This document shows positions 1-12,118 of a stretch of DNA of 12,118 bases, piece after piece. How positions within the stretch are numbered: position 1 is the first letter of the stretch; each line of letters opens with the position of its first letter. Both the position numbers and the translations under genes were made by a program. Origin of the DNA: Candidatus Raymondbacteria bacterium RIFOXYA2_FULL_49_16 (lineage in GTDB: Bacteria > Fibrobacterota > OXYB2-FULL-49-7 > XYB2-FULL-49-35); NCBI GenBank assembly GCA_001789205.1, contig MFYT01000053.1:1-12118 (forward strand), written 5' to 3'. The notes beneath the pieces are model-generated. The model was not told the DNA's origin. It worked only from the letters and a program-made list of their open reading frames with translations, and did not search any database.

Positions 1-468
1 TACACGCATTTGAAGGGGCAATTGACCAAGGCAATGCGCACTGATTACACATTTACAGACAATATGGTGACCTTGGGCAAGACCTATGAATACAAGCTTG
101 AGAGCGTTGACCTATATCATTTTACTGAGGAGTATAAGAACAAGGCAAATCTGACCATAGACAAAATCTTTCTCTTTGACCTTGAGCAGAACATGCCAAA
201 TCCTTTTAATCCAACTACCATCATTTTCTACAGCGTGCCTGGGAGATACAGTTCACAGAAAAAATTACCTGTGCGGCTTGAAATATTCAATATCAGGGGC
301 CAGTTGGTAAAGAACCTGGTGACCAGTGATAAGGGGCCAAACAGGTACAAGGTTGCATGGAATGGCAAGGCGAACAATGGAAGATATGTTGCATCAGGGG
401 TCTATGTATACCGAATCAATATTGGCGATAAGTATCTGAAAACAAAGAAGATGGTGATAGTTAAATAG
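1..468 (+). CDS. Secreted protein with T9SS type A C-terminal sorting domain (5' end missing)
   Basis: The reading frame is already open at base 1 and ends at TAG (466-468), so only the last 155 residues are visible; the true start is upstream. An in-frame TTG at base 10 is not taken as a start because coding continues before it. The first part (YTFTDNMV..GKTYEYKLESVD) looks like the last strands of a fibronectin-III-like fold, often found just before a sorting domain. From base 190 the NMPNPFNP motif opens a domain of about 92 residues with LEIFNIRGQLV, a W-x-G turn, a GVYVYRI strand and the Lys-rich end KTKKMVIVK, all hallmarks of the FlgD-like Por/T9SS type A sorting domain. Known role of the family: recognition by the type IX machinery after Sec export, then removal and attachment to the surface. 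The passenger domain and its function are outside the window. The sorting-domain call is strong; the host phylum is inference. Confidence 0.9.
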   Translation, partial: YTHLKGQLTKAMRTDYTFTDNMVTLGKTYEYKLESVDLYHFTEEYKNKANLTIDKIFLFDLEQNMPNPFNPTTIIFYSVPGRYSSQKKLPVRLEIFNIRGQLVKNLVTSDKGPNRYKVAWNGKANNGRYVASGVYVYRINIGDKYLKTKKMVIVK

Positions 469-832: not shown

Positions 833-940
833 ATGCGCGTATACGTTCAAATATATCTTTCTTTATTCTTTCCCAACAGAGCTGCAGGAATAAAAATCTT
901 GCTCCTCTCCTTTCTGTGTCTGCCTGCAATAGCATTTGCC
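833..940 (+). other. Sec signal peptide of the giant protein
   Basis: Residues 1-36 comprise a long N-region with R2, R16 and K21, a hydrophobic core (ILLLSFLCLPAIAF, residues 22-35) and an A-x-A cleavage site (AFA, residues 34-36) before T37. Cys29 lies inside the core and lacks a lipobox (the preceding residues are SFL), so signal peptidase I rather than lipoprotein processing is expected. The N-region is longer than usual, so a later start is conceivable but no better-placed ATG is seen. Confidence 0.8.
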
Positions 941-3900
941 ACCATCCTTCATGTTGGCTCAGGCCAGACTTATACGACCATTGCAGCTGGCATTGCCGCA
1001 ACCGCAAACGGCGATACGGTCTATATCCACAACGGAACGTACAGTGAAAATAATCTCTCCGTCTCTGCCAAGACAGGCGTTGTGATCAAAGGTGAGTCCA
1101 TGAAGGGCGTTATCATGAACTGCACAAGCACAAGCAGGGCGTTTTATATAAACGATGGTTGCGACTCAATTTATTTTATAAACTTTACCATACAAAATAC
1201 AAGCTCGTCAGCTATAAGCGCAGGTGGAAGCCCTGCTGGTCAAAGCCATATAAATTTCTCCAACATGACCTTCCAGAATTGTGTCTCTTCTACCAGAGGC
1301 GGGGCCATGGATGCGTATTATTTTCTAAAACAATGGCGTATTGACACCTGTTTTTTCTATGCTTGTTCGGCAAAAAGCGGCAATGGCGGGGCCATATACC
1401 ACAATCATAGCTCAACAGATACGCTTACAATAACAAACACCGTGTTTGAAAATTGTTATGCGAGCGGAGAAGCTGGCGCATTGCATGAATACGGATGTTG
1501 CGGTCCCGTTACGGTGGGATATAATTACCGGTGCAAATTTATAAACAACTATGCCGGCAATAAAGGCGGCGCTATCGGCAATATCGATGGAAACGGGGGG
1601 AGTTGGTGGACGCATGGGGGTTCAGCGGCTAGCCAATGCGATTTTATCGGCAACACCGCAGGAACCGATGCCCAACACCTAAATTTCTTATTAACTGGCG
1701 GCCAGAACGCGGAATACTGCTTCTGGGACGACGGCACAGCACCCGCAAACCCTGCTGACGCGAATTTCGCCATCACCAACTATGCCACAGCAATGCTTCC
1801 CATGAATTATTTCCCGCAATATCAGTACGACACACTGACCAGGTCTGACCCATGCAGTGTTTTTTATTCAGTGGGCACTTCAACCTCCAATCTCATGACC
1901 GGCACTCCCACGGTGTCTGTTTCCAGCGGTGTTGCCACCTTTTCAACTGCCCAGACCGGCAACATTGGCGCGGGAGACATGGTTACCCTTGATAACGGCT
2001 GGGTCTTTTATCTTAAACAAAAAACCTCGACCACTGTCTGGACTGTTTCTGCACCAATAGGCGCAAGTCCCAACAATATCTCCAGCCGCAAGGTTGTTTT
2101 CATCAAACGCGCGTTCAATTCATTGAATGCCGCCATTAGCGGCTCTGCTCCAGGTTCTGCAAATTCCAGCCATTTGAATACCATGGCGTTGACCACGGCA
2201 AAAACCAAATTATATATCTCCTGTTATGCTGATGGAAACGACGCTTCAATGGATACGGTGAGTAATACCTGGACCACAAGCGCATCGTATTACATCACCA
2301 TCTATACACCAACAAACACATTAACTGAATGCAATCAGAATCAAAGGCACGATGGCGTGATAAGCGGAGGCGGATATACCCTTACAAACACTGTTGCGAC
2401 CGACTACAAACGGAATCTGGATATTGGCGCCAGTTATACAAAAGTAATTGGATTGAAGATAATACGAACATCCTCTAACTGGTCATACGGAAGTTGCATA
2501 GGGGATTACTCTACCACAGGTGGCGTGACCAACTGTGAGTTTGCATATAATTTACTCTACCAGCAAAGCGGCGGTGACTATGGATGTCTAATTTATAATG
2601 GGAACATATCAGCAACAGACCACTATGCCTTCTCCATTCACGACAATATATTGATCAGCGGTTCCAGCACTTTGCTATGGGGAATTTATTACGGAGCAGC
2701 CTATCAAACCACAGCGGCGAGGCAGAGTAAGATTTATAACAATACCGTGTATGGAAGCTACACATCCTCGGGTGGGGCCATACGTATTGTTGTAAACAAC
2801 AGCGCCTCTTCATCATATCTGCCGCTGGTAAAAAATAATTATGCGGCAAATACGGGCACAGGTTCGGATTACATATTTGGCGGCGCTGACTACAGCAATG
2901 CGAACGCGGAATTCGCCTATAACGGGTCTGACGATGGCACTGCCGGCACCAGCAACGCCAACCAGACCATTTCCGCGGCAAACATGTACTTTACCTCTAC
3001 TACAGGCGGCAGTGAAGATTTGCACATAAAATCATGGTCATATGCCATTCTTGGCGGTGTGGGACCGTCGTCAGACGCCAATGTATCGTCCTTTGATATC
3101 GACGGTAATACACGTACGGGAACACAGACTGATATGGGTGCGGACAACACGCCTTATACACTCACCGCTGCCGCAGATCCCTGTACTTTGTATTATTCAG
3201 TTGGCACAAGCACCAATGATTTTAAGACCAGCTCTCCCACCATCTCTGTATCAGCCGGCATTGCCACCTTCTCTACTGGCCAAACCAGCACCAGTATGGG
3301 CGTGGGTGACATGATCACCGTGGCAACCAATTACACGCTGTATATAAAAAAGAAAAATTCTTCCACAGAATGGGTGGTCTGCGATCCAAGAGGCCGGACA
3401 CCCTCAAACATGTCAGCGCTTACTGTCACCTCCATCAAGCGCGCGTTCAATTCGCTCAATGCGGCCATAAGTGGCGCAAACCCGGGTGTGTGCAATGCTT
3501 CACACCTGAATCTTTCCGGCACCCCCATCAACCTTATCACTGCCGGCAAGCTGATATTTGTTCCATGCTATGCCGACGGCAATGACGAAGGGGGTTCGAT
3601 AAGCCTGTCGGCTTTCGGCTCATACCCGACCGAAGGGTGCGACGCTACCCATTATATTAAAATCTATACTCCCACCAATACATCAACCGAATGCAACCAG
3701 AGCCAGCGCCACAATGGGACGACAGGCAGCGGGTACAAACTGAATATCACAAGCACGTCAGGAAACGGCATTACTTTCACAGGTTCAGTGATGTACACCC
3801 GCATCGAAGGGCTCATCATACAGGGGCCGGGCGGTACGAGCACCGGGGATGGAATATTCAGTGACATCAACCATTACCTTATCAAGAACTGCATCATCAC

Positions 3901-6900
3901 CGGGTTCCAGGACGGCCATAGGAACGGCCGGACAGCGTCCCCAGGTATTTTTTTTGAGAACTGCCTTATATACGATTGCGTGAGCTACGGTGTGCATGGC
4001 GGATCCGTGACCCAATCCGGCGCGCTTTATCTGCTCAACAGCAGTATCATCGCCTGCGGATATGGCGCATGCTGCGAGCATGCGGCGCATGACTATATCA
4101 TCAGAAATACCATTTTCCAGAACAACGCCACCGATATCGGCTACAGCGGTACAGCGACCTCCTCCGATATTTTTGTGTATTCATCACTGCTTGAAACCAA
4201 TCCCGCTGCCTTTAGCGGCGCGGACAGCGCCAATCAGACCGGTGTCACCCTGCAATTCTCAGACTCCAGTAATAACAACTGGCACCTGTCCGCGTACGAT
4301 GCGTCTGCGCGCGATATAGGCACGGTCCTTTCCGGTCTTGCCATCTATCCCATTACTGACGATATTGACGGCACAACACGGCCGCTTGGCGCAGGGTGGG
4401 ATATTGGAGCGGATGAAATTGCCGCCTGCACCAACACCGCATTTCTCACAGGCAATATCTGGGTCGATTCAGCTCGGGGGAATGACCGCACGTGCAATGA
4501 ATGCAACGACTCCTTGCACCCCTTCAATACGTTGGACACGGCCTTTTCGCGTATCAGCAGGGTATCGGCCCTTACCGGCAATTTGACAGCCAAGATCGGC
4601 AAAGGTACATATACCATCGGAGAATTCGGGTTTATCCTCTCCGATGTTCAAACCTCGTCCAATAAGCGGCTTATCATCGAACCTCAGGAATTTGCTAAAA
4701 AAACCACTCAGATGCCTATCCTGACCAAAGCTGCAAAAACCGGAGGCGCTACGGCGTATATATTAGGCATAACCAACCACACAACTGTTCGAGGACTGAA
4801 ATTCTGCCTAACCGGCGACGGCGGATCACACGGAAATAGCCTGATCGTGGTCGGCAGACCCAGCGGCGGTACTCCGAACCATGTGGACAGCGTGATCATT
4901 GAGCGGAACATGTTTGACAATTCAGGCGTCACCAGCGGTTCTAGTATCTTTAAAATCGCAATCTCACCCGGAGAGGGCAGTTCGCACGACGTTTATATAC
5001 GAAACAACATCTTCTACAAAGGCGGCGGCGGGATCAACATCAACGAAAATAGTTGCTGCAACGCTGGTATGCGCGATTCCGCATATGTAATCACACAAAA
5101 CACTGTTTATGACTGCGATAGCAAATTCCTGAGCATCAACAATTATGGCGGGACCGCTGTTATGGCCAACATCACCATTGCCAACAATCTGATATCCAGC
5201 GCAAACGACACAATTTTCTACGGCACGCCTGATTATGCCGTTGGTCCGTACATGGTGTATAATACTGTGTATGAGTCTTCTCCCATCACCTATCCCTTCC
5301 AAGGGTTAAACGGCACCTATTATACCAAGAGCATCTGCGACTCTGCAACCTCAGCCTACCTGAGCACCACAAGCACAGACACCAACTTCCTGCGGCCGGC
5401 TGACGGGGCGCGGGCTGTTGATTTTGGCAGCGCCACGTATGCTCCCTCCACGGACATCTGGGGAAACACGCGCAGCCAGCAAGGCGGGCCTGACGCTGGC
5501 GCTGTGGAATCTCCCTATATTGGCACAACCATAACCCTTGGCGCGCACGACGCGGGCCAGGTCTCGGACGCATGCAACCAGACTGGGAAGCAAATAGACA
5601 CGGTCCTCTTCAGATTCAAGATCACCCCCACCGCCTCTCCCACTGTGGATCGCATTGCCTTCAGGCTCTGGAATATCAATAATCTTTTACAGCAAGATTT
5701 TTCCAATGTAAAAATAATCGAAGATACGGACAACGACGGCATACACGACGCCGGTGAAGTGACCCAAGTCGGCGGCTCGGCAACCACGGAGATCGCAAGC
5801 GACGCAGGCCGTATATATTTCACCGCTGATTTCGCGGTTGCCAGCGCCAAAAACTACCTCCTTGTGGCAGACCTGCAGTCGCTGTATCATAACGATTCAA
5901 TACGTATCGGTCTATACACGGACAGCATAACGCTCCTCAGCGGCCTTAAAAGCGGGACAGTCACGGACATTGCCCACAAGGAAGTATACACTACCCCCCC
6001 GTACCGGTTTGTGGCAATAGGAAACAAAACAAATTACACTACCGGGACCATTTCGACAACAGCAGGTTCAAAGGTGGTGACTGGCAGCGGTACTGCCTGG
6101 ATCACAGACAACCGTGGCCAGGGTGACAGCATATACATTGCCGCTTGTGGTAAAGGATATACAATTGATTCCGTGACTTCAGAAACGCGGATTGTGCTGC
6201 AACAAAACGCCAATACAACCAACAGCGGTGTTGCCTATACACTGCTGCGCAAATACCGGTTGCTGAGCAATTGGGAGGGACAACACACCAACCTTATTGC
6301 CAAAAATTGGGGTGAAAAAGTCCTGATCTATAAGGACACTATCCAAAATGCGCCTGGTATAGAAGGGGAACCATGGAATCCCGGCAAATGGGCCACCAAT
6401 GCCACGCATAAAATATGGCTTACAGCAAATGATTCCAACCGCCATAAAGGCATTGAAGGTACAGGCGTCATTATTGACGCGAATGGGGGCTATTTCACAA
6501 ACAGGCCCCCGCATATCATTTTTGAAAACATCGAGATACGGAACATGGGGGGGAGTTCTTCGTACTATGGCCTTTATTTTAGCGGTGATTCATGCGTTGT
6601 GAGGAACTGCATTGTGCACAATGCGACCCAAAGCGGCATCTATTTTAGCGACAACCAGGGTGATTCAGCATACAACAATATTGTGTATGATTGCGCAAAA
6701 TGGGGAATAATGCAGGACAATACCACTGAAGCATGCTATGTTGCCAATAACACAGTGTTCCACTGCGACACGGGAATCAGCAAAAGCTCAGCCAATGGTT
6801 CAGTCATTAACAACATCTGCTGGGGCAACCATGTATATGATTTTAATCAAGTTGGTTCCAGTAAATATTCCACAACCAAAGACACCAACAATATTTCAAG

Positions 6901-9900
6901 CGATGCCACATTGAACACGCTCGGTGTTGGTTCAAAAAACTATTACAGTATTACGTATGGCCAGATCGCTTTTATAGACACCGTTACCCGTAACCTCCGC
7001 CTGCGGGCAACAAGCACAGCCATCAATGCCGGAGCAGACCTCAGCGCGGTATTTACGAATGATATCGACGCTACAACACGGCCCACAGGCAGTGCGTTTG
7101 ACATTGGCGCGGACGAATTTCCCTATGGGGTGAGTCCCTGCGGATCAGACCCGTGCAGTGTCTATTATTCCGTTGGCACCAGCACATCGGACTTTAAAAC
7201 CAACACACCCACAATTTCAATCACCAATGGCACTGCCACGTTCTCGGAAGGCCAGACCGGCAACATAGGCGTGGGTGACATGATCACGTTCAACACCAAC
7301 TACGAAGTATACATCAAAAAGAAAAACACCGCGAGCGAATGGATTGTGCAGTGGCCCAATGGCAAGATACCATCGGGTGTATCAGGCGCTCCAGTGACGT
7401 CCATCAAACGCGCGTTCAATTCGCTCTACGCCGCAATTGACAGTTTACCTTCAGGGGCCTCGAATGCCGCACACCTGAATACCAAAGGATTGGTTGCCGG
7501 AGCATACAGATTATTTGTTCCCTGCTATGCCGATGGTACTGATGCCACGCGAGTCATTGTCGCCGGTTGGACCACTGATGCGACGCATAAGATAAAAATA
7601 TTCACTCCGAACAATACGAGCACGGAATGCAATCAGACGCAGCGGCACGATGGAACATGGTCAACAGGCTATCTTTTATCGTACAGTTCAACAAGTTTTT
7701 ACGCCCTGAGACTGGAAGTGCAAAACAACATAACAGTTGAGGGGTTGCGGGTAACCGCGACAGGCGCTTCCAACAATGGAATACAACTTATAAATACTGA
7801 CAATTGTATAATTAAAGATTGTATCATCAAAGGCTGTAATAGTGATGGAATCTACAATTTTAACCCCTCGGACGGAAAAAAGAATTATCTGATCAATAAT
7901 ACCATCTACGATAACAATGCTTCCGGAATCAGGACTGGACAAGCGGGATACAGCTCGGAAATAACGTATATTTACAACAATACCATATTCGGCAATGCTG
8001 AATACGGCATATTTTTATGGCGATACAGCAGCGGGACCACTCATTCGGCAATATTAAAAAACAATGTCTGCCAAAAGAATGGTAATGGCTCAACATCTTT
8101 TGACTATGGTGCAAGCGCCACAACAGGAACGTCAACCTATGATTTGTTCAACTGCATCAGTAAGGACAGTACGGCTGACGATTTCGGCGGTTCGGGTAAT
8201 GTGGTGGCCGCTACGCTGGAGTTCCAGGACTCCGCAAACAAGGATTTCCACCTGAACATCAATGACGCATCCGCGGTGGATAAAGGTTTGAGCCTCGCGG
8301 CTGACACATATTATCCCTTTAGCACTGATATTGACGGCGCCACCCGTTCAGGCACCTGGGACATTGGCGCAGATGAAGAGCTATACGCCATTGGCGCATG
8401 CACCTCTTCCCCGTGTAGTGTCTGCTATTCAGTGGGGACCAGCGCGTCGGATTTCAAAACCGGCACACCAACCATCTCAATAACCACGGGCACAGCCACC
8501 TTTTCAACAGGCCAGACCGGAAACATCGGCATTGGCGACAAAATCTATTTTGGCACAGGGACCAATGCCGTCTACATCAGGAAAAAAACATCGGCAACGG
8601 AATGGGAAGTGTCCACTGGCACTGGCGGAAGGCCAACCGGCATATCAGGTGCAACAGTCACTTCCATAAAAAGGGCCTTTGGTTTCCTTGGGGCTGCGAT
8701 AAATGGCATAAACCCTGGAGCGGCAAATGCAACCCATTTAAACGGCAAGGCGCTCACCACCAAGGACACCAGGCTCTACATTGCCTGCTATGCGGATGGT
8801 ACTGATACGTCCATGAACTTGCTCCATTATTCATGGACCACGGATGCAACACGGTATATCACCATTTTCACACCCGCAAACACATCGACTGAGTGCAACA
8901 GCAGCCAGCGGCACAATGGGGCCATTGATGGCGGCGGTTATACCATGAACAGCCCAAATCCCGATGGTTATGTATATAACATTGAGCTTGATGCACATTA
9001 CACAAAAGTTTTTGGAATCAAAATAGTGAGGACTTCAGCCAATTCCGGGTATTTTTCCGCTATTGGACGCCGTAATTATTCCAACAATTCCAGTACTGGG
9101 TGCGAAGTTGCCTATAATTTGCTCTACGAACCAAGCGGCGGGACCTTCGGAGGAATATTCTCGTGGTCAAACGCAGGTTGGTCATACGCCTATGCGTTAA
9201 ATTTCCATGATAATATTATCATCTCCACCTCCACTACTGCGCTATACGGTCTATCTTTTGCCATTAATAATCAAACTGACGCGGCCCATCAATGCAAAAT
9301 ATATAACAATACCGTGTATGGAAATTTTACCTCAGGGGGCGGGGCAATACGGATTGCCGTTGACAATAGCAGCGCATCGTCATACAGGTCCCTGGTCAAA
9401 AACAATTATGCGGTAAGCACGGGCGACGGCCCGGATTATATATTTAATGGCAATGATTATGACAACACCGCAAGCGTATTTGCCTACAATGGTTCGGACG
9501 ACGGCACAACTGGGACCAGCAACAGTAACCAGACCATTAGCGCAACAAACATGCTTTTTGTATCAACAATAAGCGGGAGCCAGGATCTTCATATATCGCC
9601 CTCGTCCTCCGGCATTGGCGCAGGCATAGGCCCATCGAGTGACGCCAATGTTTCAACAAGCGATATAGACGCTAACACCCGGTCCGGCGCCACTACAGAC
9701 CTTGGCGCGGATTTTTTCGAAGGGGCCTCAATGCTCTATCTTTCCGACCATACCGCGGGCCAAAAAAGCGACGCGTTTCACGAAAATGGCGTGGAAACCA
9801 ATGCGCACTTGTTCGCGTTTAAGTTGACTCCCGGCACTGGCACAGCCACTGTTACACAATTGGTATTTACGCTTTCAGGCATTTCCGGACTGACGGATGG

Positions 9901-12118
9901 AGACTGGACAAAAGACAGTATTTTTATTGACGCTGACAACGACGGTGTGGTGGATGCTGGCGAATCAAAGGTAGGCGGCCAAGGGGTGGTAAGCGGGACG
10001 GCCTTGACGTTTTCAACCAGTTTTGACGTATCAGCTGCCACAAACTACATTCTTCGAGGTGATTTCGCCTCACTTTCACTGAACGATAGTGTGCGAATAT
10101 CACTGACCGCAACAAACATTACCACCACCTATGGGAAAAGCGGTTCAACCACGCCAATAAAACATGCCGAATTTTTTTCCACACGGTATGTGTCGGTTGG
10201 CAGCAAGGTGGATTATACCACCGGGAGCGTAACAGCGACCAATGGTTCGCGCGTGGTGACAGGAAGCAGTACAGCGTGGATTACAGCCAACCAGGGACGG
10301 GGCGACAGCATTATCATCAACAGCGTGGGATACACCATTGATTCAGTGACTTCGGAGACAAGGATAGTGCTCCAGGCCCTGGCAACCGCCAGTTACACTG
10401 GCAGCAGTTACAGCATAAAACGCAGGTATGCGACCTTTGTGGCATGGGAGAACCAGAACGCCAATCTGGTGACTGCCGGACGGAGCGAGGTAGTGTATTT
10501 TTACAAGGACGCTGAATTTACCTCCCAGACCATAAACGATTGGACAACGAATGCAACTAACAGGCTCACATTAACAGCCAATGAGTCCAACCGGCACAAT
10601 GGGACAGCTGGTACGGGTGTTGTTATAAACTGCAACGCAACCAACCTGAGCGTTTATCCGAGCTATACAATAATAGAATACCTCGATTTCAGAAACATGG
10701 GAGGGAACGGACTGCATATCATGTCCACATATTCAAGAGTCAGGAATTGCATTGTCCGTAACGCTACCGGAGAAGCGGGCATCAGGATGTATTATACATC
10801 AGCGAATGACAGTATTTACAACAATATTGTATACGACTGCGCCCGTTCAGGGATTTATGCTGGCGGGGACCGGTCTCTTTTCTCGAATAATACGGTCTTT
10901 CATTGCGATACAGGCATCTATGGATATGATCTTCAGGTCATCAGAAATAATATCTGTTGGGGCAATCATACTGTTGACTATGCGGAAGGCCACACGTGGA
11001 CATTAAGCACGGAAGACACCAACAATATCTCAGGCGATGCGTCCCTTAATACCATTGGCGTGGGTTCCAAAAATTACGCTAATGTGAAATACTACCAGAT
11101 ATCCTTTGTTGACACAGCTACCCGTAACCTGCATCTGCAGGCAAGCAGCATTGCGCGTGATAAGGGGGCGAACCTCAGCTATATGTTTACCAAAGACATT
11201 GACAATGCCGCGCGCCCCTTTGGCAATGACTGGGAAATAGGCGCTGATGAGATAGCCGCGTGCACCAATACCGCGTATCTTTCGGGAAACATCTGGGTGG
11301 ATTCGGCGAATGGGTACGACAACCTGTGCAACGAATGCAACGACTCCCTGCACCCGTTCCTGACAGTTGATACAGCTGTGACGCGCATTAGCACAGCATC
11401 AGCTCTGACCGGTACGGTAGCGGTAAAAATCGGACCTGGGACATATTCATGGGCAAGCACCGGGGGTATTAGCACAACCTCAATACAGGCGACCTTTGCC
11501 AACAATCTGGTCTTCGAACCGCAGCGCTGGGCAAAAAAACCCTCAGAAATGCCCCTGCTTACCAAACCCGCCACCACTGGAGCCGGCAGCAGCATTTTAT
11601 TCAATATCGCAAGCTATACCTCCATACGCGGGTTACGATTGGCATTTACAGGTAACGGTGGCGCCAACTGGAATATCATGATCAATTGCTCAAAACCTGG
11701 ATATAGCGGCGCGCCCAACCATTTCGACAGCATTTGGGTGGAAAAGAATCTTTTCGACATGTCGGGCATTACCGGAGGGTCAGCGTATAGAGCCCTTAGC
11801 GTCCATTACCATGAGGGCAGCCACAAAGGCCTCTTTATACGCAACAACATCTTTAATAAATGTTACGGAGCCATGTTTTTCACTGAAAACAACTGCTGTA
11901 ACGCAAGTAGCCGTGATTCTCTCTACTATGTCGTTAACAATACCGCATACGATTGCAGCAACAAATTCATCAATATCAGCGATGAGGGCGGGACCGCTGT
12001 CATGGCCAACATCACCATTGCCAACAACCTGATATCCAGCGGCAATGACACGGTCTTTTACGGTACTGCCGGATACGCGGTTGGCCCATATACTGTGTAC
12101 AACACGGTTTACGAGACC
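833..12118 (+). CDS. Giant secreted multi-module parallel beta-helix surface protein (3' end missing)
   Basis: A single frame of 3,762 codons runs from ATG 833 to the window edge without a stop. Residues 1-36 are a Sec signal peptide. Residues 37-338 form a Pmp-like helix with GGA(I/M/L) motifs. Eight modules follow: A1 339-781, A2 782-1198, D 1199-1560, E 1561-2105, A2' 2106-2522, A1' 2523-2965, E' 2966-3476 and D' from 3477. The helix parts show rungs such as NNTVY, NCII and GIY, and the seven complete modules close with D-[ILMA]-G-A-[DV]-type motifs, as in choice-of-anchor-Q-like beta-helix families. No lyase or hydrolase active site is recognisable. Inferred role: a long extracellular fibre, adhesin or glycan-binding protein. 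A C-terminal sorting domain is expected downstream because the neighbouring gene carries one, but it is not visible. Composition is typical of such proteins: rich in Asn, Thr, Ser and Gly, with unusually many Cys. The ORF is certain; the function is not. Confidence 0.93.
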   Translation, partial: MRVYVQIYLSLFFPNRAAGIKILLLSFLCLPAIAFATILHVGSGQTYTTIAAGIAATANGDTVYIHNGTYSENNLSVSAKTGVVIKGESMKGVIMNCTSTSRAFYINDGCDSIYFINFTIQNTSSSAISAGGSPAGQSHINFSNMTFQNCVSSTRGGAMDAYYFLKQWRIDTCFFYACSAKSGNGGAIYHNHSSTDTLTITNTVFENCYASGEAGALHEYGCCGPVTVGYNYRCKFINNYAGNKGGAIGNIDGNGGSWWTHGGSAASQCDFIGNTAGTDAQHLNFLLTGGQNAEYCFWDDGTAPANPADANFAITNYATAMLPMNYFPQYQYDTLTRSDPCSVFYSVGTSTSNLMTGTPTVSVSSGVATFSTAQTGNIGAGDMVTLDNGWVFYLKQKTSTTVWTVSAPIGASPNNISSRKVVFIKRAFNSLNAAISGSAPGSANSSHLNTMALTTAKTKLYISCYADGNDASMDTVSNTWTTSASYYITIYTPTNTLTECNQNQRHDGVISGGGYTLTNTVATDYKRNLDIGASYTKVIGLKIIRTSSNWSYGSCIGDYSTTGGVTNCEFAYNLLYQQSGGDYGCLIYNGNISATDHYAFSIHDNILISGSSTLLWGIYYGAAYQTTAARQSKIYNNTVYGSYTSSGGAIRIVVNNSASSSYLPLVKNNYAANTGTGSDYIFGGADYSNANAEFAYNGSDDGTAGTSNANQTISAANMYFTSTTGGSEDLHIKSWSYAILGGVGPSSDANVSSFDIDGNTRTGTQTDMGADNTPYTLTAAADPCTLYYSVGTSTNDFKTSSPTISVSAGIATFSTGQTSTSMGVGDMITVATNYTLYIKKKNSSTEWVVCDPRGRTPSNMSALTVTSIKRAFNSLNAAISGANPGVCNASHLNLSGTPINLITAGKLIFVPCYADGNDEGGSISLSAFGSYPTEGCDATHYIKIYTPTNTSTECNQSQRHNGTTGSGYKLNITSTSGNGITFTGSVMYTRIEGLIIQGPGGTSTGDGIFSDINHYLIKNCIITGFQDGHRNGRTASPGIFFENCLIYDCVSYGVHGGSVTQSGALYLLNSSIIACGYGACCEHAAHDYIIRNTIFQNNATDIGYSGTATSSDIFVYSSLLETNPAAFSGADSANQTGVTLQFSDSSNNNWHLSAYDASARDIGTVLSGLAIYPITDDIDGTTRPLGAGWDIGADEIAACTNTAFLTGNIWVDSARGNDRTCNECNDSLHPFNTLDTAFSRISRVSALTGNLTAKIGKGTYTIGEFGFILSDVQTSSNKRLIIEPQEFAKKTTQMPILTKAAKTGGATAYILGITNHTTVRGLKFCLTGDGGSHGNSLIVVGRPSGGTPNHVDSVIIERNMFDNSGVTSGSSIFKIAISPGEGSSHDVYIRNNIFYKGGGGININENSCCNAGMRDSAYVITQNTVYDCDSKFLSINNYGGTAVMANITIANNLISSANDTIFYGTPDYAVGPYMVYNTVYESSPITYPFQGLNGTYYTKSICDSATSAYLSTTSTDTNFLRPADGARAVDFGSATYAPSTDIWGNTRSQQGGPDAGAVESPYIGTTITLGAHDAGQVSDACNQTGKQIDTVLFRFKITPTASPTVDRIAFRLWNINNLLQQDFSNVKIIEDTDNDGIHDAGEVTQVGGSATTEIASDAGRIYFTADFAVASAKNYLLVADLQSLYHNDSIRIGLYTDSITLLSGLKSGTVTDIAHKEVYTTPPYRFVAIGNKTNYTTGTISTTAGSKVVTGSGTAWITDNRGQGDSIYIAACGKGYTIDSVTSETRIVLQQNANTTNSGVAYTLLRKYRLLSNWEGQHTNLIAKNWGEKVLIYKDTIQNAPGIEGEPWNPGKWATNATHKIWLTANDSNRHKGIEGTGVIIDANGGYFTNRPPHIIFENIEIRNMGGSSSYYGLYFSGDSCVVRNCIVHNATQSGIYFSDNQGDSAYNNIVYDCAKWGIMQDNTTEACYVANNTVFHCDTGISKSSANGSVINNICWGNHVYDFNQVGSSKYSTTKDTNNISSDATLNTLGVGSKNYYSITYGQIAFIDTVTRNLRLRATSTAINAGADLSAVFTNDIDATTRPTGSAFDIGADEFPYGVSPCGSDPCSVYYSVGTSTSDFKTNTPTISITNGTATFSEGQTGNIGVGDMITFNTNYEVYIKKKNTASEWIVQWPNGKIPSGVSGAPVTSIKRAFNSLYAAIDSLPSGASNAAHLNTKGLVAGAYRLFVPCYADGTDATRVIVAGWTTDATHKIKIFTPNNTSTECNQTQRHDGTWSTGYLLSYSSTSFYALRLEVQNNITVEGLRVTATGASNNGIQLINTDNCIIKDCIIKGCNSDGIYNFNPSDGKKNYLINNTIYDNNASGIRTGQAGYSSEITYIYNNTIFGNAEYGIFLWRYSSGTTHSAILKNNVCQKNGNGSTSFDYGASATTGTSTYDLFNCISKDSTADDFGGSGNVVAATLEFQDSANKDFHLNINDASAVDKGLSLAADTYYPFSTDIDGATRSGTWDIGADEELYAIGACTSSPCSVCYSVGTSASDFKTGTPTISITTGTATFSTGQTGNIGIGDKIYFGTGTNAVYIRKKTSATEWEVSTGTGGRPTGISGATVTSIKRAFGFLGAAINGINPGAANATHLNGKALTTKDTRLYIACYADGTDTSMNLLHYSWTTDATRYITIFTPANTSTECNSSQRHNGAIDGGGYTMNSPNPDGYVYNIELDAHYTKVFGIKIVRTSANSGYFSAIGRRNYSNNSSTGCEVAYNLLYEPSGGTFGGIFSWSNAGWSYAYALNFHDNIIISTSTTALYGLSFAINNQTDAAHQCKIYNNTVYGNFTSGGGAIRIAVDNSSASSYRSLVKNNYAVSTGDGPDYIFNGNDYDNTASVFAYNGSDDGTTGTSNSNQTISATNMLFVSTISGSQDLHISPSSSGIGAGIGPSSDANVSTSDIDANTRSGATTDLGADFFEGASMLYLSDHTAGQKSDAFHENGVETNAHLFAFKLTPGTGTATVTQLVFTLSGISGLTDGDWTKDSIFIDADNDGVVDAGESKVGGQGVVSGTALTFSTSFDVSAATNYILRGDFASLSLNDSVRISLTATNITTTYGKSGSTTPIKHAEFFSTRYVSVGSKVDYTTGSVTATNGSRVVTGSSTAWITANQGRGDSIIINSVGYTIDSVTSETRIVLQALATASYTGSSYSIKRRYATFVAWENQNANLVTAGRSEVVYFYKDAEFTSQTINDWTTNATNRLTLTANESNRHNGTAGTGVVINCNATNLSVYPSYTIIEYLDFRNMGGNGLHIMSTYSRVRNCIVRNATGEAGIRMYYTSANDSIYNNIVYDCARSGIYAGGDRSLFSNNTVFHCDTGIYGYDLQVIRNNICWGNHTVDYAEGHTWTLSTEDTNNISGDASLNTIGVGSKNYANVKYYQISFVDTATRNLHLQASSIARDKGANLSYMFTKDIDNAARPFGNDWEIGADEIAACTNTAYLSGNIWVDSANGYDNLCNECNDSLHPFLTVDTAVTRISTASALTGTVAVKIGPGTYSWASTGGISTTSIQATFANNLVFEPQRWAKKPSEMPLLTKPATTGAGSSILFNIASYTSIRGLRLAFTGNGGANWNIMINCSKPGYSGAPNHFDSIWVEKNLFDMSGITGGSAYRALSVHYHEGSHKGLFIRNNIFNKCYGAMFFTENNCCNASSRDSLYYVVNNTAYDCSNKFINISDEGGTAVMANITIANNLISSGNDTVFYGTAGYAVGPYTVYNTVYET
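941..1846 (+). other. N-terminal Pmp-like beta-helix domain
   Basis: Residues 37-338. The opening HVGSGQTYTTIAAGI followed by GDTVYIHNGTY is the standard first turn of a parallel beta-helix (x-TI-x-x-A...GD-x-V-x-I...G-x-Y). Four GGA-type motifs follow: GGAM at 156-159, GGAI at 185-188, AGAL at 214-217 and GGAI at 245-248, spaced 29, 29 and 30 residues. They come with F-x-N or F-x-x-N elements (FQNC, FENC, FINN, FIGN). That combination matches the chlamydial polymorphic membrane protein repeat (GGAI plus FxxN), which is also found in many other bacterial surface proteins. This domain occurs once; the later modules lack GGA repeats at this spacing. It probably caps the fibre. Confidence 0.75.
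1847..3175 (+). other. Module 1 (A1): YSVGTS linker plus beta-helix
   Basis: Residues 339-781, 443 residues. It opens with DPC-x-x-x-YSVGTS, then a small beta-rich domain ending around GAGDMVT, then the segment FIKRAFNSLNAAI and a CYADGND strand (to base 2242). The helix begins at ITIYTPTN and TECNQNQRHDG (Cys at residue 500). Typical rungs follow (FAYNLLY, HDNILIS, IYNNTVYG, VKNNYA), then FAYNGSDDG. It closes with DIDGNTRTG...DMGADN (767-772). It is paralogous to module 6, which has exactly the same length under the same boundary rule. The closing motif has M and N where the consensus has I and E. Confidence 0.8.
3176..4426 (+). other. Module 2 (A2): YSVGTS linker plus beta-helix
   Basis: Residues 782-1198, 417 residues. 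It opens with DPC-x-x-YYSVGTS, has the GVGDMIT small domain, SIKRAFNSLNAAI and CYADGND (to base 3586). The helix starts at IKIYTPTN and TECNQSQRHNG (Cys954). Rungs include YLIKNCIITGF, FFENCLIYDCVSYGV and YIIRNTIFQNN. A WHLSAYDASARDIG segment and DIDGTTRPLG...DIGADE (from 1190) close the module. That ending is the diagnostic pattern of choice-of-anchor-Q-like beta-helix proteins. It pairs with module 5, which has the same length and the same kind of ending. Confidence 0.8.
4427..5512 (+). other. Module 3 (D): VDS/GND beta-helix with conserved Cys motifs
   Basis: Residues 1199-1560, 362 residues. It opens with ACTNTAFLTGNIWVDS and GND, a variant of the usual YVD...GND helix cap. CNEC (1221-1224) and DSLHPFNTLDTA follow, matching the PF-x-T-(I/L)-x-x-A first turn, then KIGKGTYT. 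Later rungs include VIIERNMFDNSG and VYIRNNIFYKGG, then a CC pair (1408-1409) and a final stretch whose DNA is almost identical to module 8. It closes with NFLRPADGARAVD and DIWGNTR...DAGAVE (from 1554), the most divergent of the closing motifs. It is followed directly by module 4 with no extra linker. Confidence 0.78.
5147..5201 (+). repeat. Near-identical DNA patch in module 3, copy 1
   Basis: These 55 bases match 11987-12041 at 53 positions; both differences (GTT/GTC and AAT/AAC) are synonymous. They encode GGTAVMANITIANNLISS. The bases on either side are clearly less similar, with many third-position changes. Confidence 0.9.
5513..7147 (+). other. Module 4 (E): beta-sandwich with Ca-type loop, GD domain and beta-helix
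   Basis: Residues 1561-2105, 545 residues. The first part (LGAHDAGQVSD..., then LFRFKITP) alternates hydrophobic strands like an Ig-type sandwich and carries DTDNDGIHDAGE (1631-1642), which has acidic residues at positions 1, 3, 5, 9 and 12 of an EF-hand-like loop. A small domain follows (GSKVVTGSGTAWI..., RGQGDSIYI, SVTSETRIVL), resembling the VTGSGTAW...GD domain of phage tail fibres and large surface proteins. The helix begins at KIWLTANDSNRHKG and shows rungs such as VVRNCIVHNA, YNNIVYDCA and VINNICWGN. The end is DIDATTRPTG...DIGADE (from 2090). It is paralogous to module 7 and 34 residues longer. Confidence 0.77.
7148..8398 (+). other. Module 5 (A2'): YSVGTS linker plus beta-helix
   Basis: Residues 2106-2522, 417 residues, the same length as module 2. 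It has DPCSVYYSVGTS, GVGDMIT, SIKRAFNSLYAAI and CYADGTD (to base 7543), then IKIFTPNN and TECNQTQRHDG (Cys2266). Rungs include IIKDCIIKGC, YLINNTIYDNN, YIYNNTIFGN and ILKNNVCQKN. The end, DFHLNINDASAVDKG plus DIDGATRSG...DIGADE (from 2510), is close to the choice-of-anchor-Q consensus. The short SPCGS stretch before it adds an extra Cys next to the module boundary. Confidence 0.8.
8399..9727 (+). other. Module 6 (A1'): YSVGTS linker plus beta-helix
   Basis: Residues 2523-2965, 443 residues, the same length as module 1. It has SPCSVCYSVGTS, GIGDKIY, SIKRAFGFLGAAI (the most divergent copy of the KRAFNSL segment) and CYADGTD (to base 8806). The helix starts at ITIFTPAN and TECNSSQRHNG (Cys2688). 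It shares with module 1 the rungs VAYNLLY, HDNIIIS, IYNNTVYG, VKNNYA and FAYNGSDDG. It closes with DIDANTRSG...DLGADF (from 2956), again lacking the final Glu of the consensus as module 1 does, which supports common descent of these two. Confidence 0.8.
9728..11260 (+). other. Module 7 (E'): beta-sandwich with Ca-type loop, GD domain and beta-helix
   Basis: Residues 2966-3476, 511 residues. The sandwich part (LSDHTAGQKSD, LFAFKLTPG) carries DADNDGVVDAGE (3033-3044), the second EF-hand-like loop. The small domain (GSRVVTGSSTAWI, GRGDSIII, SVTSETRIVL) matches module 4 almost word for word in its key residues. The helix starts at RLTLTANESNRHNG and has rungs VRNCIVRNA, YNNIVYDCA, FSNNTVFHCDTGI and IRNNICWGN. 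The end is DIDNAARPFG...EIGADE (from 3468). Unlike module 4, it follows an A1 module and precedes a D module. Confidence 0.77.
11261..12118 (+). other. Module 8 (D'): VDS/GND beta-helix, incomplete
   Basis: Residues 3477-3762, 286 residues seen before the window ends. It opens with ACTNTAYLSGNIWVDS and GYDN (in place of GND), then CNEC (3499-3502), DSLHPFLTVDTA, KIGPGTYS, the rung WVEKNLFDMSG, LFIRNNIF, the CC pair (3688-3689) and VYNTVYE. Against module 3 the visible part differs by only two residues in length up to VYNTVYE. No closing DIGADE-type motif is reached. The gene continues off the right edge. Confidence 0.78.
11987..12041 (+). repeat. Near-identical DNA patch in module 8, copy 2
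   Basis: This is the partner of 5147-5201, 6,840 bases downstream on the same strand, with 53 of 55 bases identical. It lies inside the incomplete D' module. Confidence 0.9.

Follow-up and report, generated by a model that had tools for sequence, protein, structure and literature searches.

Module reordering in a giant beta-helix protein of Candidatus Raymondbacteria probably reflects recombination between paralogous genes

Surface proteins that evolve by recombination are a known kind. The bab and sab products of Helicobacter pylori are outer membrane adhesins that are not built as chains of repeated modules. Their paralogous genes (babA/babB and sabA/sabB) swap segments to give chimeric genes, an exchange that is probably RecA-dependent and tied to adhesion (PMC3960876). 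In Porphyromonas gingivalis, the large type-IX-secreted proteins HagA, Kgp and RgpA have module classes that are reordered between genes and strains, and the work describing this combinatorial modularity pointed to gene conversion as one source of the variation (PMC5266723). DDxP repeat proteins, which are likewise giant and carry several module types in mosaic order, are reshaped by homologous recombination, and their growth has been proposed to occur by insertion with target-site duplications (PMC7730722).

Here, we analysed a 12,118-nucleotide stretch of DNA (the window) from Candidatus Raymondbacteria bacterium RIFOXYA2_FULL_49_16, which is the full length of contig C53, one of 112 contigs in a 5.43 Mb genome rated 100% complete. 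The window encodes the greater part of a giant secreted protein made up of about ten beta-helix modules. This protein resembles HagA/Kgp/RgpA in architecture, while those proteins carry cleaved adhesin and DUF2436 domains and their variation was seen between strains rather than, as here, between genes of one genome (PMC5266723). Segment swapping between paralogues is shared with the H. pylori genes, whose RecA dependence and link to adhesion we only infer for the family in the window, and the mosaic order is shared with the DDxP proteins, although the latter are built from DDxP-motif repeats and not from beta-helix modules. The models for choice-of-anchor Q (NF041518) and parallel beta-helix proteins (PF13229) match three GADE-type module-end stretches and four beta-helix stretches, respectively, but their reach is limited to the module ends and a portion of the helix. 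A description of this beta-helix family itself was not found in our searches.

According to the ORF reading of the window, a single frame (833-12118, plus strand) runs without a stop and is still open at the contig end, beyond which the C-terminus of the protein lies. All-against-all comparison within the window resolved the chain N-A1-A2-D-E-A2'-A1'-E'-D' inside this frame, visible as far as D', which is cut where the frame leaves the contig (Table 1). The order of modules read in the first-pass annotation is therefore real within the window, given the BLASTP matches and the one open frame. Each module also has its namesake as best match in the window: A1/A1' share 58% amino acid identity (E 6e-177), A2/A2' 43% (4e-97), D/D' 55% (3e-115) and E/E' 47% (8e-149), and the top score between classes is that of A1'/A2' (39%, 1e-81). 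The annotation's count of four classes, each occurring twice, holds to this extent only, because E consists of two modules, a linker domain L and a beta-helix module Eh, which occur apart in other genes: L was found without Eh behind it in six of them and Eh without a preceding L in C23, C57, C75 and C96. Written in separable modules, the halves read A1-A2-D-L-Eh and A2'-A1'-L'-Eh'-D', so that D jumps over both L and Eh. The reversal within pairs thus exists as labelled but does not amount to a pairwise swap; moreover, once the places of the A and D/E pairs are fixed, only four orders are possible, and a swap would arise by chance one time in four. That a single tandem duplication is insufficient to produce this module order was borne out.

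Table 1. Coordinates of features in the window, with the evidence for each.
Feature	Position	Strand	Evidence
Last 155 aa of an upstream paralogue, bearing a type IX sorting domain	1-468	+	TIGR04183, 30.4 bits (cut-off 23)
Signal peptide region plus beta-helix-like N domain; opens the N+header exchange block	833-1846	+	DNA match to C106/C89
Module A1, three-source mosaic: header 1847-2140, then beta-helix body	1847-3175	+	MaxChi breaks 2135, 2630
Conserved header-end DNA (CATCAAACGCGCGTTCAATTC...AATGCCGCCAT), codes for beta-helix cap helix; main crossover point	2101-2137	+	21-bp exact repeat with 7402-7422
Module A2, body sister to C106 A module	3176-4426	+	Body tree 100/100
Module D, clusters with D of C106 and C96 and apart from D'	4427-5518	+	Tree; AU p 3.2e-5 against D+D'
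Module E of the first-pass annotation (L + Eh)	5519-7147	+	
Linker domain L, first part of E, sister to C106 L	5519-6010	+	Tree 95/94
Module Eh, beta-helix with small header domain	6011-7147	+	Pfam Beta_helix, 38 bits
Module A2'	7148-8407	+	BLASTP, tree
Module A1', body sister to C75_A1	8408-9730	+	Body tree 99/99
Linker domain L', first part of E'	9731-10189	+	BLASTP, module occurrence across genes
Module Eh', second part of E' (E' = 9731-11260)	10190-11260	+	BLASTP, module occurrence across genes
Module D', cut by contig end, sister to C109 D	11261-12118	+	Tree 100/100; 78% DNA identity to C109

The modules are matched by PF13229, a right-handed parallel beta-helix model, with 71.8 bits (gathering score 25.9), and by NF041518 with 75.6 bits (cut-off 25), and no Pfam model matched L, D or the header above cut-off. 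A fold model using 11 sequences (pLDDT 75), which replaced a four-sequence model (pLDDT 49), predicts a small beta domain at residues 1-90, a cap helix at 94-99 that starts the body, and a beta-helix body thereafter; Foldseek returned weak matches only, to LnbX and Pel9A (E ~0.013). Complete tails of paralogues bear a type IX secretion sorting domain, as in C69 (24.8 bits, cut-off 23) and in the gene upstream of the window frame, and a search for the type IX machinery that covered SprA_N alone found it on C61 (81.5 bits). The window protein is thus probably secreted by the type IX route and would be located at the cell surface, where its fold suggests a role in binding carbohydrates or surfaces, or in adhesion.

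About a dozen frames in the genome are built from the same modules. The architectures are partial, several contigs ending inside modules and sharing end sequence, and read N-A-L-Eh-D in C106, A-A-L-Eh-D in C109, ..A-N-A-A-L-tail in C89, five A followed by L and tail in C69, A-L-tail in C90, A-Eh-L-Z-A in C75, Eh-Eh-L-Z-A in C23, Eh-Eh-x-D-L-Eh-x-Eh in C96, Eh-Eh-tail in C57 and Eh-L in C44. Among the family genes compared, the N domain occurs only in C53, C106 and C89. The C75 and C23 genes have a 1,900-aa middle region in common (60% identity) between L and a second A module, and the Eh and D modules assigned in the 4,909-aa open frame at C96:71-14797 (minus strand) lie beyond its first 2,551 aa. 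At the start of the window, the tail of the upstream gene, whose body lies beyond the contig start, shares 74% identity with the C90 tail and 68% with that of C69; since it is of the same family, at least two paralogues stand in tandem at C53. The intergenic region holds two copies of a 41-bp direct repeat (476-568; 90% identical, starts 52 bp apart), and an Rfam scan of the window gave no match. By body-tree class, C89 reads N-A1-A2 and C109 reads A2-A1-L-Eh-D, an order that recurs, minus A1, in C106. It follows that the second half in full, and the first half at its start, have counterpart genes of the same order, and the window gene juxtaposes two arrangements that are also present as separate genes.

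Module A1 is itself composite. Window positions 950-2178 match C106 at 82.5% DNA identity with an abrupt end of the match, positions ~939-2457 (1.5 kb) match C89 at 80%, and the N domain plus header of C53, C106 and C89 form one block of 80-85% DNA identity, which fronts an A2-type body in C106 and an A1-type body in the window. Identity to C106 drops to ~47% at position ~2147, and the sources of the module are, in order, a C106/C89-like N+header, a C109-like segment from ~2135 and a C69-like segment from ~2630. MaxChi located the switch from C106-like to C109-like sequence at 2135 (chi2 212, 0/5000 permutations; informative sites 79/94 to the left and 60/465 to the right) and that from C109-like to C69-like sequence at 2630 (0/5000 permutations), and both were recovered from third codon positions alone. 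At fourfold sites, W_A1 (the prefix W_ marking modules of the window) agrees with C106 at 33/56 positions in the header and 7/35 in the body (Fisher 4e-4), and with C69 at 12/35 in the header and then 68/100 in the body (Fisher 6e-4). Because fourfold identity falls from header to body for one parent and rises for the other, the switches are not due to uneven constraint on the protein. In the header tree, W_A1, C106_A1 and C89_A2 fall together (100/100), whereas the body tree places C106_A1 with W_A2 (100/100) and W_A1 with C109/C69 (96/96), a conflict with AU p-values of 1.6e-52 and 4e-8. In the fold model, the main break falls at residue ~96 and hence separates header from body.

The same pattern extends across the family. 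Header and body distances of A modules are nearly uncorrelated (r=0.12), and 86 of 2040 A-module triples, which have sequences in common and so count comparisons and not events, contain complete switches, whose breakpoints cluster at module nucleotides 240-420; a breakpoint near module nucleotides 1070-1071 proved to be an artefact of the N gap in C69_A1 and was dropped. C69_A1 and C90_A1, for example, have a common header (84/96 aa) and a divergent body (81/239 aa), and C106 and C109 reach 98-99% identity over the Eh-D linker within flanks of mostly 42-67%, the larger part of the D body being at 42-64%. Three regions of the window, 2434-2503, 2750-2917 and 12011-12075, hold exact tracts of 65-80 bp in common with C69 and C109, the last a 65-bp tract that is also present in the D module of C109. 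Clean header-body switches were few and weak in Eh (6/1092 triples), and same-gene clustering of headers was not significant (p 0.064). The breakpoints, together with the conflicting header and body trees, support the earlier suggestion that recombination occurred near shared sub-domains, and they make this family a probable case of surface-protein diversification by intragenomic recombination. The header-end DNA (CATCAAACGCGCGTTCAATTC) is kept in the majority of the genome's A modules and could act as recombination homology, while its conservation may reflect the protein alone. An invertible shufflon was also considered and set aside, as the window contains no inverted repeat pairs of at least 40 bp and all its modules lie on the plus strand.

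Could these arrangements have arisen within the gene itself? In the model drawn from the first-pass annotation, a four-module block was duplicated inside the gene and places were then exchanged within pairs, which would fit the best in-window match of every module being its namesake. This is very unlikely, given that both orders already exist in other genes, that E divides into two modules, and that the predicted sister pairs did not hold up in trees and AU tests that took in module copies from paralogues of the same genome: the clades A1+A1' (p 1.3e-4), A2+A2' (p 1.1e-7), D+D' (Table 1) and L+L' (p 9e-6) were rejected, and only Eh+Eh' was not (p 0.088). Neighbouring modules did not group with one another either; the nearest relatives lie mostly in C106, C109, C69, C75 and C96. 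The annotation had further proposed selection for a particular order along the fibre, and A2-A1-L-Eh-D is indeed seen in two genes, but a fixed order is scarcely credible when the first half of the window, C89, C96, C69 and C75 all have other orders. A history of repeated duplication in tandem, and of deletion, in a longer array, (A2-A1-L-Eh-D)n for example, with the halves as different remnants and little exchange between genes, could yield any order and would agree with the recurrence of this array in C109 and, in part, in C106. We nevertheless regard it as unlikely on its own, because it leaves unaccounted for both the switches of nearest relative to other genes within modules and the near-identical linker tracts in diverged surroundings; tandem duplication and deletion may operate alongside intergene exchange.

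A chimera assembled between repeats deserves attention, since the evidence base is one genome in a single draft assembly, without reads. Family contigs break off within modules, with overlaps of 31-67 bp, and C69 contains an N gap. The overlaps, which lie in an A header at the C83 end, the C69 start and the C37 start, probably stem from a single repeat node that the assembly did not resolve. Against this, the longest exact repeat within the window is 26 bp and the parental sequences share a run of at most 11 bp at the main breakpoint, which makes a k-mer chimera unlikely there, and the tracts are 80-98% and not 100% identical, so that no assembled parent was copied in. Assembly error as the cause of the order, a caveat raised at the outset, is accordingly highly improbable.

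Given the paralogues with their differing orders, the tree conflict, the breakpoints and the near-identical tracts, we consider it likely (probability roughly 0.8) that exchange between paralogous beta-helix genes, through ectopic homologous recombination or gene conversion, has reordered the modules, with crossovers at headers and linkers. The conserved headers (~98 aa, ending in a beta-helix cap) and the inter-module linkers would supply the homology, presumably for recombination of the RecA type. A crossover at the header end would put a new beta-helix body behind an existing header with the fold retained, and longer exchanges would move several modules at once. The window gene would then be an N-A1-A2 arrangement, as in C89, chained to A2-A1-L-Eh-D, as in C109, and not a duplicated block with swapped parts. 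Most shared tracts are only ~80-98% identical; they are therefore not recent and do not imply ongoing exchange within one strain, and exchange between lineages would look like exchange between paralogues of one genome.

Across the phylum (167 genomes, counting this one), only two others have body-only A matches at E <1e-10 and none has a match to the D module. As the 166 other genomes include no close relative carrying these modules, the paralogues stood in for the related genomes in which the first-pass annotation had expected other orders. A search of 84,980 species found only remote relatives, with 27-29% identity over full-length modules; A-type modules with header occur in an Archangiaceae MAG and a Bdellovibrionales MAG, too distant for comparing orders. 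We tentatively entertain the possibility of a lineage-specific body-exchange system, in which headers would serve as fixed docking and homology arms and bodies would be swapped among about a dozen genes, frequently enough for variable surface specificity.

These results carry the warning that pairing repeats within one window can mislead if paralogues elsewhere are left unsampled. The roughly twenty natural header-body combinations in this one genome are a resource on the foldability of swapped beta-helix modules. The mapping of breakpoints to a short stretch indicates that protein modules can be reordered when a different body is placed behind a conserved header, instead of by movement of whole modules.
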